Assembly (NCBI GenBank): GCA_022819825.1
Contig: JAJEGM010000001.1
Coordinates: forward strand, 1 to 64,000
Direction of reading: 5' to 3'
Length of the DNA: 64,000 bases
DNA from: Acidimicrobiia bacterium
GTDB taxonomy: Bacteria; Actinomycetota; Acidimicrobiia; Acidimicrobiales; Bin134
Each line of letters begins with the position of its first letter. Positions within the stretch are counted from its first letter, which is position 1. This document shows, one piece after another, positions 1,533 through 60,175 of the stretch. Below the pieces are notes generated by a model. It did not search any database. It was given only the letters and a program-made list of their open reading frames with translations, and had not been told where the DNA came from. Position numbers and translations under genes: made by a program.

Positions 1533-1579
1533 TATAGTTTTTTTGTTCCGCATTGCGGTACTGGTCCACAGTATGGAAC
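1533..1579 (+). promoter_or_regulatory. Promoter with paired palindromic operator (locus 1) of the corrinoid cassette
   Basis: A -10-like TATAGT (1533-1538) is followed by two tandem 17-bp imperfect palindromes, GTTCCGCATTGCGGTAC (1545-1561) and GGTCCACAGTATGGAAC (1563-1579), separated by one base. The same 17+1+17 layout recurs at 8263, 13481 and 60141. Its position at the likely transcription start suggests a repressor site, and the IclR protein encoded at 8308 is the obvious candidate. The assignment to IclR is inference; the repeat itself is directly visible. No good -35 was found. Confidence 0.7.
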
Positions 1580-1617
1580 CCGCCCTGGGGTCCAGCACCA
1601 CAGAAGGAGTGTGTCGA

Positions 1618-2319
1618 ATGACTGACACGCCCGAGATCGACGACATCGATCTGTCGAGTCTGAACGACGAAGACCTCTGTGCGCAGATGCACGACGATCT
1701 TTACGACGGCCTGGCCGAGGAGATCGACGAGGGCACCAGGATCTTGCTGGACCGGGGCTGGCCGGCCGACAAGGTGCTGGACGTGGCGCTGGTGGAGGGG
1801 ATGCGCATCGTGGGCATCGACTTCCGCGACGGCATCCTGTTCGTGCCCGAGGTGCTGCTGGCCGCCAACGCCATGAAGGCGGGCATGGCCATACTCCGGC
1901 CGCTTCTGGCCGAGACCGGGGCCGAGCCCATCGGCAGCGTGGTGATCGGCACGGTCAAGGGCGACATCCACGACATCGGCAAGAACTTGGTGGCCATGAT
2001 GCTGGAGGGCGCGGGGTTTGAGGTAACCGACCTGGGCATCAACACCGACGTGGAGGAGTTCATCGCCGCCCTCGACGAGCACCAGCCCGACATCTTGGGC
2101 ATGTCGGCGCTTCTCACCACCACCATGCCCTACATGAAGGTAGTCATCGACACCCTGGTGGAGAAGAGCCTGCGGGAGGACTTCATCGTGCTAGTGGGCG
2201 GCGCTCCCCTCAATGAGGAGTTCGGCGAGGCCATCGGCGCCGACGCCTATTGCCGTGACGCGGCGGTTGCCGCGGAGACCGCCAAGGAACTCGTAGCTGC
2301 CCGCCGAGCCGCGGTCTGA
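1618..2319 (+). CDS. Corrinoid protein, MttC/MtbC-like methyl carrier
   Basis: The 233-residue cobalamin-binding protein would carry the methyl group between the MttB-type substrate methyltransferase and the folate methyltransferase of the same operon. A helical cap (about 15-100) is followed by a Rossmann-like B12 domain. The signature GDIHDIGKNL contains Asp116 and the cobalt-ligand His118, then comes a Ser/Thr-rich SALLTTT (163-169) and VGGAP (193-197), as in methionine synthase and MtaC/MttC proteins. The ATG at 1618 is chosen because AAGGAG (1603-1608) stands at the proper distance; longer readings would run back through tRNA-Lys. It is first in the cassette, two bases before the DUF1638 gene, behind the paired operator. 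Confidence 0.93.
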   Translation: MTDTPEIDDIDLSSLNDEDLCAQMHDDLYDGLAEEIDEGTRILLDRGWPADKVLDVALVEGMRIVGIDFRDGILFVPEVLLAANAMKAGMAILRPLLAETGAEPIGSVVIGTVKGDIHDIGKNLVAMMLEGAGFEVTDLGINTDVEEFIAALDEHQPDILGMSALLTTTMPYMKVVIDTLVEKSLREDFIVLVGGAPLNEEFGEAIGADAYCRDAAVAAETAKELVAARRAAV

Positions 2320-2321
2320 CC

Positions 2322-2930
2322 ATGTCCAAAGTGCTCGTGGTGGCCTGCGGGGCGCTGGCCAAGGAGTTGCGCCACCTCATCTCGGCCCTCGAGAACGAGG
2401 GGGGCGGCCCCGGCATCGACCTCGAGTGCCTGCCGGCCAAGCTGCACAACCGCCCGGAGCTGATCCCCGAGGCGGTGCGGGATCGGGTGCGGGCCGCCCG
2501 TGGCCGCTACCAGACCATTCTGGTGGGCTACGCGGACTGCGGCACCGGGGGCCTGCTCGACAAGGTGTGCCAAGAAGAAGGGGTGGAGCGCCTCCCTGGC
2601 CCCCACTGCTATGAGCTGTATGCCGGGACCGAGGGCTTTACCCATCTCCAAGAGGAGGAGCTGGGAACGCTGTACCTCACCGACTATCTGGTGCGGCATT
2701 TCGAGCGCCTGATTCTGGAGGGGCTGGGCATCCTCGACCACCCCGAACTTCAAGACGTCTATTTCAAGAACTACACCCGGCTGGTGTACCTGTCACAGGA
2801 GCACGACCCCGAACTGGACCGATTGGCCCGACAAGCGGCCGACCGTCTGGGGCTGCGCTTCGAGAAGGTGGTCACCGGTTACGGAGGTTTGGTCGATGCG
2901 CTGGTAGAGATCCGGGAGCGAGCCGCGTGA
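2322..2930 (+). CDS. DUF1638 domain protein
   Basis: The 202-residue cytoplasmic protein belongs to DUF1638, a family seen repeatedly beside corrinoid methyltransferase genes but with no established reaction. Visible conserved blocks are VACGALAKE near the N-terminus, LPAKLHNRPELIP, the glycine-rich GYADCGTGG and HCYEL. The Cys and His in these blocks could bind a metal. It is translationally packed between the corrinoid protein (two bases upstream) and the next gene (GTGA overlap), so it is almost certainly made with them. A role in cofactor handling, corrinoid maturation or substrate supply is possible but unproven. Confidence 0.85.
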   Translation: MSKVLVVACGALAKELRHLISALENEGGGPGIDLECLPAKLHNRPELIPEAVRDRVRAARGRYQTILVGYADCGTGGLLDKVCQEEGVERLPGPHCYELYAGTEGFTHLQEEELGTLYLTDYLVRHFERLILEGLGILDHPELQDVYFKNYTRLVYLSQEHDPELDRLARQAADRLGLRFEKVVTGYGGLVDALVEIRERAA

Positions 2931-58591: not shown

Positions 58592-58633
58592 GGGCGGGAA
58601 GCGTAGGCCAGGCTCTCGTTCAAAACTTATTTG

Positions 58634-60025
58634 CTACTGCGGTAGCGATCGGCGCCACGCTTGGGCGTCTTTGCCCATCGGTGTGGACGGGGCCCGGTCG
58701 GTGAACGGCCAGAGCTCCTCGGCGATCCTGCGCCAGTTGGCGGTGGCCCCAAGCTGGGCGAACAGCGAGATCAGCCCGAGATTTATCCGCTGAAGCACCA
58801 CCAGCGAAGGGGGCACGTTCAGCACCTTCTTCAGTTCGGCGTGCTCGCCGGTGGCGTTGAAGATGGCTCTGACCCCCGCGGCGGCATATTCCGGGGTGAA
58901 CGTCCGGGTCTCATCGGTCAACACGAACTCGTAGAAGTGAGTGAAGAACGCCTCCACCTCGTCGTCGCTGAACGGGGCGTCGGCCGGCAGCAGCCCGGCG
59001 GCCACTTGTTCGGCCCGGAACCGGGGAATGTCCCGGTCGATCACCATGGCTATGAGCATCCGCTCGAACTGGGAGGTCTCTTCGGTGGTGAACCGCTTTA
59101 CCAGTCCAAAATCCAAGAAGGTGACGGAACCGTTGGGACCGAAGAGGTAGTTGCCGGGGTGGGGATCGCCGTTGAACGCCCACAAGCGATAGATCGACCC
59201 GAACGAGAACCGATAGACGGTCTCGGCCACCCGATTGCGCTGCTCCTGGGGCCATCCCAGCACATCTTCGAAGGTCGCGCCGGTAGCCAACTCGGTAGTG
59301 AGCACCCGGGAAGAGCTCAAGTGGTCATACACCTCGGGAACGGAGATGTAGGGGTGACCCCGGTAGTGGTCGGCGAACAGGCGCTGGTTGGACGCCTCAT
59401 GCTCGTAGTCGAGCTCCTCGGTGAGTCGCTGGCGCAGCTCGTCCACAATGGGGGCGGGGTCGAGGCCGGGAAACAGCACCGACAGCGCCCGAAACACCAT
59501 CCTGGCCGATCCCAGGTCGGCGGCAATGGCCTCAGCCACGCCGGGATACTGGACTTTGACTGCGCAAGGCCGGCCGTCGGGGGTGATGGCCCGGTGGACC
59601 TGGCCGATGGACGCCGCCGCAATGGGCACCGGGTCCCACTCCTCGAACAGCTCGTCGGGCGTGGCGCCGAGTTCGGCAGCCACCACCGACTCAGCCAGGG
59701 CCGGGCTCATCGGCGGGGCGTTGGCCTGAAGCTGGGCCAGTGACGTCCGGGTGGACTCGGGGAGGCCCACATCCAAATAGCTGGCCATCTGGCCGATCTT
59801 CATCAGCGCGCCCTTCATATTGCCCAGCACTTCCACCACGTCGGCCGCCGTGCGCAGCTCCCGCTCTGCTTCGAGGGCCTCTGACCGCCGAGCGTCGGCG
59901 AACACCTGCCGGGCCCGGGCCATCGCCCAGCGTCTCCCGCTGCGAGCTCCTAGCCCGGCCATTTTGGCCGTGCGCCCCAGCCGTCCCCGCCGGGGCACCG
60001 CTCCCCGACCGCGCCTGTCTGCCAC
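58634..60025 (-). CDS. ABC1/UbiB-family atypical kinase (AarF-like)
   Basis: The 463-residue protein has the ABC1 signatures: KIGQ (76-79) in the extended N-terminal helix, the Ala-rich AAASIGQVHRA loop, Lys157 in CAVKVQYPG, ELDYEHEASNQ, NGDPHPGNYLF and LDFGLVK. It is a likely ATPase/kinase linked in other bacteria to quinone or lipid metabolism. The exact start is uncertain: GTG at 60025 or 59998 or an ATG near 59963. No transmembrane helix is clear at the end. The 211 bases to serA hold the operator and promoter region. Confidence 0.85.
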   Translation of the reverse strand: MADRRGRGAVPRRGRLGRTAKMAGLGARSGRRWAMARARQVFADARRSEALEAERELRTAADVVEVLGNMKGALMKIGQMASYLDVGLPESTRTSLAQLQANAPPMSPALAESVVAAELGATPDELFEEWDPVPIAAASIGQVHRAITPDGRPCAVKVQYPGVAEAIAADLGSARMVFRALSVLFPGLDPAPIVDELRQRLTEELDYEHEASNQRLFADHYRGHPYISVPEVYDHLSSSRVLTTELATGATFEDVLGWPQEQRNRVAETVYRFSFGSIYRLWAFNGDPHPGNYLFGPNGSVTFLDFGLVKRFTTEETSQFERMLIAMVIDRDIPRFRAEQVAAGLLPADAPFSDDEVEAFFTHFYEFVLTDETRTFTPEYAAAGVRAIFNATGEHAELKKVLNVPPSLVVLQRINLGLISLFAQLGATANWRRIAEELWPFTDRAPSTPMGKDAQAWRRSLPQ

Positions 60026-60140
60026 CCCGCCGAAAATACCGGCCCCACCATCGCCGCTGGCACCTTTGACGAAGATCGCGGGATGAGGAATTGTCCGGCT
60101 GGATTCTGCGATTTCACGGGACAGCGACCGGTAATGCCGT

Positions 60141-60175
60141 GTATCGTTAAGTGGAACAGTTCCGCTATGCGGCAC
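60141..60175 (+). promoter_or_regulatory. Paired palindromic operator (locus 4) before serA
   Basis: Two tandem 17-bp palindromes, GTATCGTTAAGTGGAAC (60141-60157) and GTTCCGCTATGCGGCAC (60159-60175), one base apart, match the three other loci. They lie 61 bases before the serA ATG and after the possible start region of the ABC1-kinase gene on the other strand. Confidence 0.68.

Follow-up and report, generated by a model that had tools for sequence, protein, structure and literature searches.

What is the function of a 35-bp element that recurs before several operons of one actinobacterial contig, and which protein reads it? The element consists of two 17-bp dyads separated by a 1-bp spacer and lies in the first 64,000 nucleotides (positions 1 to 64,000 of the forward strand, hereafter the window) of contig JAJEGM010000001.1 from an Acidimicrobiia bacterium (assembly GCA_022819825.1; 3,438,613 bases, 91% complete). 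It very probably serves an autoregulated IclR-family repressor, encoded at 8308-9051 and probably acting as a dimer of dimers, which would control cobalamin-dependent demethylation of glycine betaine together with folate-linked one-carbon (C1) oxidation.

Full tandem pairs occur at three places in the window, namely before a corrinoid cassette (1545-1579, GTTCCGCATTGCGGTAC-T-GGTCCACAGTATGGAAC), between a dehydrogenase-electron transfer flavoprotein (ETF) operon and the gene of a methylenetetrahydrofolate reductase (MTHFR)-like protein (13481-13515, GGTCCGTATTATGGTAC-A-GTTCCGTTATGCGGAAC), and before serA-DUF1015 (60141-60175, GTATCGTTAAGTGGAAC-A-GTTCCGCTATGCGGCAC). The last two are conserved in the genus, and the identical 35-mer of the 1545 site recurs in 13 of 21 same-genus genomes among the matches listed. 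A fourth site precedes iclR (8263-8297, GTTCCGTATCGTGGAAC-T-GTTTCAGCACCGGGGTA). An earlier, preliminary description of the window had located all four sites correctly and had overstated their consensus: GTTCCR-N5-YGGAAC, ascribed to seven of the eight copies, is matched exactly by two (8263 and 13499) and by five at no more than one mismatch. Counted by eye, the copies at 13481 and 60141 deviate at two positions each and that at 8281 at five.

Scanning for the 35-mer at up to three mismatches returned only these three places in the window (mean of 0.00 in 100 dinucleotide shuffles) and the same three in the whole 3.44-Mb assembly, where the reversed pattern, used as control throughout, gave none. 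The pair is thus rare in the genome, and no further pair exists in the window, as had been claimed. The single 17-mer at up to one mismatch is uninformative (23 places in the genome versus 45 for the control), so it is the pairing that carries the signal. Single dyads elsewhere in the genome were dropped as regulon members, given that the control exceeds the pattern. One extra single-dyad match (C29:8183, L016) also fits a Y7/R11 refinement by eye.

Conservation near orthologous genes of relatives was borne out as well. One to three tandem sites were found in 17 of the 21 same-genus genomes, and a refined pair pattern was present in 54 of 298 genomes taken evenly across the order, representing 11 families, with no control hit among the matches listed; wherever the surroundings were examined, orthologous genes lay downstream. 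The control of the genus scan gave a single match, in G022, among 60 genomes. A tandem match in G041 was rejected as chance: it was lost under the refined pattern, and this genome has no IclR match at E ≤ 1e-15.

The strictness of the arrangement emerged from the best 80 of 282 IclR relatives in a contig scan, taken with up to 10 kb on either side of iclR (1.35 Mb in total) and searched at up to four mismatches. By title, these records are all metagenome-assembled genomes (MAGs), mostly of Acidimicrobiia, Acidimicrobiales, Acidimicrobiaceae or Actinomycetota, with one 'marine group bacterium Sva0996 bin134' and one Rhodobacterales among them. Pairs numbered 86 (60 distinct) in 62 of the loci, and the control gave none. 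When the spacer was varied from 0 to 29 bp, a spacer of 1 bp yielded 87 pairs, the 87th carrying an N in the spacer, while every other length yielded 0 to 3 and the control 0 for each. The most constant positions were C4 and G14 of the first dyad, found in all 60 distinct sites. Palindromes can of course arise by chance in GC-rich DNA, and single dyads evidently do so here. For the pairs, however, this explanation has a negligible probability: they are conserved across families, and their controls returned nothing in the own genome, the 80 loci, the spacer test, the shuffles and, among the matches listed, the order scan, with the one hit in 60 genomes. The 35-letter signature is non-chance.

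Which genes adjoin the pairs? With gene starts extrapolated from tblastn and a gene assigned when its start lay within 400 bp of a pair, 84 of the 86 pairs lie upstream of iclR or of a pathway gene, that is, one for a dimethylglycine-dehydrogenase-like protein, formate-tetrahydrofolate (THF) ligase, MTHFR, formate dehydrogenase, a corrinoid protein or SerA. Divergent gene pairs account for most: dehydrogenase and formate-THF ligase (34), formate dehydrogenase and the prolyl-tRNA synthetase gene proS (12), and dehydrogenase and MTHFR (9). The others precede iclR (17), formate-THF ligase (6), a corrinoid protein (3) and, once each, formate dehydrogenase, serA and the dehydrogenase; the two pairs outside the gene set both stand next to a ProW-type permease gene. 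The corrinoid cassette often falls outside these loci because they are centred on iclR and reach only 10 kb each way. In 28 further regions from 19 genomes, which were mostly picked for holding pairs and partly overlap with the 80 loci by genome, all 31 pairs (again at up to four mismatches) adjoin pathway genes or iclR, the corrinoid cassette included. Pfam searches of the relatives' loci confirmed formate-THF ligase, FolD (next to the ligase in some relatives), formate dehydrogenase-type subunits and OpuAC. Two side observations concern this set. The proS gene is near iclR in 46 of the 80 loci (for example L172, L196 and L116), and a 3.4-kb contig titled Rhodobacterales (L178), with a 57% identical IclR and a tandem site, is possibly a mis-binned actinobacterial contig.

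The distribution of the pairs follows that of the regulator. Across the 298 order genomes, IclR was detected at E ≤ 1e-45 in 69, and the two features occur together in 49, the pair alone in 5, IclR alone in 20 and neither in 224 (Fisher P 5.6e-34, a value that ignores kinship). Pair presence also tracks IclR identity, from 39 of 41 genomes at 50% or more through 6 of 9 at 46-50% to 4 of 19 below 46%. Within the genus, 15 of the 17 site-bearing genomes hold an IclR orthologue of at least 71% identity, and the four genomes without sites (G003, G008, G011 and G016) have no detected orthologue. These four keep serA with adjoining DUF1015, and the operator before it has decayed in place in G011 (8 mismatches). 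The best match in G008 shows 7 mismatches, by eye with one dyad a base short and the other kept, and nothing recognisable is left before serA in G003 and G016. Decay where no IclR was detected links the operator to the regulator, an argument limited by gaps in MAGs (G008 is 68% complete).

Several observations weigh against this assignment. Five genomes (G062, G113, G152, G167 and G246) carry pairs with no IclR at the threshold; in G152 a 38% identical IclR adjoins the pair, and in the other four the pairs stand beside pathway genes with no IclR within the regions examined. Two same-genus genomes, G001 (88% complete) and G017 (68%), have sites yet only distant IclR paralogues, and of the 20 genomes with IclR and no pair, 15 are below 46% identity. 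No pair at up to four mismatches was found in 18 of the 80 iclR loci, several of which are short contigs. In G011 the dehydrogenase persists (95% identity), and no regulator or operator was detected. The window genome encodes its formate-THF ligase (81% identity) on another contig with no operator nearby; this gene therefore either dropped out of the regulon in that genome or was never part of it. Further, the co-occurrence counts are phylogenetically non-independent, and all 80 iclR-locus records are MAGs. The five genomes with pairs alone could mean that some other transcription factor, whose gene lies at a different place, acts at these operators and that iclR is a mere passenger of the cluster. 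That is improbable, given that IclR identity predicts the sites, that dyads precede iclR itself and that the operator has decayed where no orthologue was detected. As a separate observation, three genomes of family f54 (G074, G115 and G146) have a 42-43% identical IclR about 8 kb from a DUF1015 gene and no tandem site found; their operator has perhaps diverged.

The candidate regulator (8308..9051, + strand) matches PF09339 at 47 bits (cut-off 22) and PF01614 at 113 bits (cut-off 24). Its best NCBIfam match is the BhcR model NF045644, with 132 bits against a cut-off of 350, so that it does not rank as a BhcR equivalog; its PDB profile matches include TtgV (2xrn) and the acetate operon repressor. 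At its own promoter, where a fourth pair had been described, the first copy (8263..8279) is a perfect dyad and the proposed autoregulatory operator, whereas the second (8281..8297) is degenerate and has no conserved dyad. The same holds in all 14 same-genus iclR promoters examined, own included: the first dyad is perfect, the second is degenerate and the whole 35-mer has at least 5 mismatches. The full pairs before iclR in 17 of the 80 loci belong to other families. By eye, a hexamer resembling TATCCT or TAGGGT, a candidate promoter element, comes between the dyad and the ATG, close to the latter. Directly upstream of iclR, as in 13 of the 80 loci, lies a gene for a GFA-domain protein of the formaldehyde-activating-enzyme family (7817-8242).

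Does the regulator repress or activate? The position of the operators bears on this, that at 13481 among them. To its left, on the minus strand, are genes for a dimethylglycine/sarcosine dehydrogenase-like flavoprotein (10840..13371; DAO, FAO_M and GCV_T domains), an EtfB-like subunit (10048..10830; PF01012) and an adjoining EtfA-like subunit (9071..10051), which is kept with EtfB in relatives by tblastn. To its right is the MTHFR-like gene (13507..14391, + strand), whose product is very divergent (PF02219, 32 bits against a cut-off of 24; TIGR00676, 47 bits against 294). Its in-frame starts are 13297 (GTG), 13384 (TTG), 13471 (TTG) and 13507 (ATG), followed by none before 13771, and the 13507 ATG is present in all 10 same-genus copies examined, own included. 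If translation starts at this ATG, which lies inside the second dyad, the operator contains the beginning of the reading frame, an arrangement fitting blocked transcription; the transcript may then be leaderless. Because the operators overlap or abut likely promoters, repression is the most likely mode. IclR could instead be mainly an activator, or activate some units and repress its own gene, in line with the dual role proposed for BhcR, its best NCBIfam match, in the available portion of PMC11323563. We consider this somewhat unlikely, since the 1545 operator follows directly on a -10-like TATAGT (by eye) and the proposed MTHFR start falls within the 13481 operator, both of which fit repression better. 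A consensus promoter scan of 1450-1640 around the 1545 site, which found nothing, leaves the -10 boxes as identified by eye only and counts against the main explanation.

The substrate is suggested by the cassette behind the 1545 operator, all on the plus strand. It encodes an MtgC-like corrinoid protein with Pfam B12-binding domains (1618..2319), a DUF1638 protein (2322..2930; PF07796) and a small protein (2927..3283; PF13769, 'Virulence factor' in name only) that is conserved in relatives' cassettes too. These are followed by a pterin-binding, methyl-THF:corrinoid methyltransferase-like protein (3280..4182; NF005719 above its cut-off, PF00809), a RACo/RamA-type reductive activator of the corrinoid protein (4179..6248; PF14574, PF17651 and PF17650) and an MttB-superfamily methyltransferase (6245..7780; PF06253, 730 bits), likely a glycine betaine:corrinoid methyltransferase. 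The methyltransferase, corrinoid protein, methyl-THF methyltransferase and activator thus occur together, and glycine betaine is their likely substrate as judged by homology. Another methylated amine, such as trimethylamine, proline betaine or carnitine, is an unlikely substrate on balance. MttB-superfamily members do vary in substrate; the corrinoid protein scores 204 bits with the MtgC model against a cut-off of 370; MttB is likewise below its NCBIfam cut-off, and its top PDB match (4yyc, 631 bits) was deposited as a putative trimethylamine methyltransferase. These points tell against betaine. On the other hand, MttB scores 401 bits with the glycine betaine methyltransferase 9yce versus 100 bits with the trimethylamine methyltransferase 7xcl, the next regulated enzyme is dimethylglycine/sarcosine dehydrogenase-like, and betaine-type transport genes (OpuAC, ProV/ProW) and GMC oxidoreductases are present in some loci. 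In one such locus, G121 (L119 8162-18543), a GMC oxidoreductase and ProV/ProW-like transporter genes separate the corrinoid cassette from iclR. A second cluster in the window (29769-36197), with no tandem operator, encodes an MttB-family protein (29769-31298) and two DAO-GCV_T dehydrogenases (31300-33930 and 33753-36197).

From the computed sites, spacing, gene set, co-occurrence with IclR and decay where IclR was not found, we infer a mechanism that extends to binding, oligomeric state, repression, inducer and substrate. Each 17-bp dyad (about GTTCCRYANTRYGGAAC) would bind one IclR dimer, and two dyads held 18 bp apart centre to centre by the fixed spacer would bind a dimer of dimers. Until an inducer appears, perhaps one derived from betaine or resembling glyoxylate, IclR would repress the corrinoid cassette, the dehydrogenase-like flavoprotein with ETF, MTHFR and serA2-DUF1015, as well as its own gene, at which one dyad alone would presumably give weaker control. 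On induction, cells would convert glycine betaine to dimethylglycine with B12 and oxidise the methyl group via methyl-THF and MTHFR. Dimethylglycine and sarcosine would then yield further C1 units as methylene-THF, with sarcosine ending as glycine. In relatives the last steps of C1 oxidation, to formate and CO2, would fall to formate-THF ligase, which has FolD next to it in some of them, and to formate dehydrogenase. Insofar as family knowledge can tell, the gene content fits this route, in which betaine gives dimethylglycine, then sarcosine and finally glycine, and methyl-THF and methylene-THF carry the C1 units. Of the one-carbon regulon described beforehand, demethylation and folate C1 oxidation stand, and it is better named a regulon of glycine betaine/dimethylglycine demethylation plus folate C1 oxidation, to which relatives add formate-THF ligase and formate dehydrogenase.

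The arm ascribed to serine synthesis fared less well: the operator before serA-DUF1015 stands, and serine synthesis is unproven. The unit encodes a second 3-phosphoglycerate dehydrogenase-like SerA of 407 aa (60237..61460, + strand) and a DUF1015 protein (61499..62740, + strand; PF06245) with a DGHHR motif that is invariant in all 13 aligned DUF1015 proteins. This SerA matches PF02826 and PF00389; its best NCBIfam model for the dehydrogenase, TIGR01327, gives 262 bits against a cut-off of 454. Its paralogue, a SerA-like open frame of 527 aa with 40% identity, is found on contig 40 at a distance of 3 to 4 kb from serC. A pair precedes serA in the genus, in G104 and G167, and in L173 (4 mismatches). 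Within the genus and in a small number of genomes outside it, the second serA with DUF1015 would have joined the regulon. The four same-genus genomes that keep both genes with no IclR detected imply a role beyond the regulon, and a betaine-only function of the two was rejected on the same grounds. DUF1015 was also rejected as a regulon marker: 125 of 148 order genomes carry it, and in its 30 best-scoring loci, where identity to the window protein is 22-27% or too low for tblastn to detect, no serA stands beside it.

What might serA2-DUF1015 do? One speculative answer is an assimilatory arm run backwards, in which DUF1015 would phosphorylate serine made from betaine-derived glycine and methylene-THF, and SerC with SerA2 would then give 3-phosphoglycerate, so that betaine carbon would enter glycolysis by a reversed phosphoserine pathway under the same IclR switch. 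This idea is rather unlikely. The DGHHR motif may resemble ParB/SerK motifs. Sequence and profile searches of the PDB gave no serine kinase or ParB match for DUF1015, only unrelated proteins at E 0.3 to 0.45, and no ParB-type Pfam match was found among the 13 members. A single-sequence structure model (mean predicted local distance difference test score 38.9) was too poor for fold comparison. If true, the proposal would assign a function to DUF1015.

Collectively, the 35-bp double operator offers a marker, readable from sequence, for betaine-driven C1 metabolism in an order known here almost only from MAGs. It names a testable regulator and ties the little-studied DUF1015 and a second SerA to the betaine pathway in some genomes. 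Further, the strict 18-bp spacing of the dyads makes it a clean test case for DNA reading by an IclR dimer of dimers.

Two known systems bear on the enzymes. In Ruegeria pomeroyi, MtgBCD links B12-dependent betaine demethylation to folate C1 oxidation in aerobic marine bacteria, and 5% of mtgC reads were classified as Actinomycetota, according to the available portion of PMC12478193. The window would share this route and differs in having a separate pterin-binding protein as methyl-THF methyltransferase and an IclR-linked operator common to the genes; the term 'IclR' is absent from the main text of that paper in its available portion. The ADP-dependent serine kinase SerK, known from Thermococcus (PMC5120207, available portion), offers no more than a lead: if serine were phosphorylated, SerA2 and SerC could operate in the direction of 3-phosphoglycerate. 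DUF1015 showed no sequence link to serine kinases or ParB in the PDB or Pfam.

As for the regulator, searches of open-licence PMC text found no report of this regulon, an absence that is weak evidence. Like the regulons of IclR, AllR, BhcR, TtgV and PcaR/PobR, it combines the same protein family with a palindromic operator, a dyad before the regulator's own gene and a small catabolic gene set. It differs in its targets, B12-dependent demethylation and folate C1 oxidation, and in its operator, two 17-bp dyads kept exactly 1 bp apart, a spacing that seems unusually strict for an IclR regulon; open-licence PMC text yielded no paper on TtgV operators for comparison. In the portion of PMC11323563 available, glyoxylate lowers and pyruvate favours DNA binding by E. 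coli IclR and by BhcR of Paracoccus denitrificans, the DNA-bound form being a tetramer. BhcR resembles the window protein in serving small-carbon metabolism and is its best NCBIfam match; unlike it, BhcR controls the beta-hydroxyaspartate cycle, and the window IclR scores far below the BhcR cut-off. IclR regulons and the protein family are known; the operator architecture, the target set and their range are new as far as the literature was searched.

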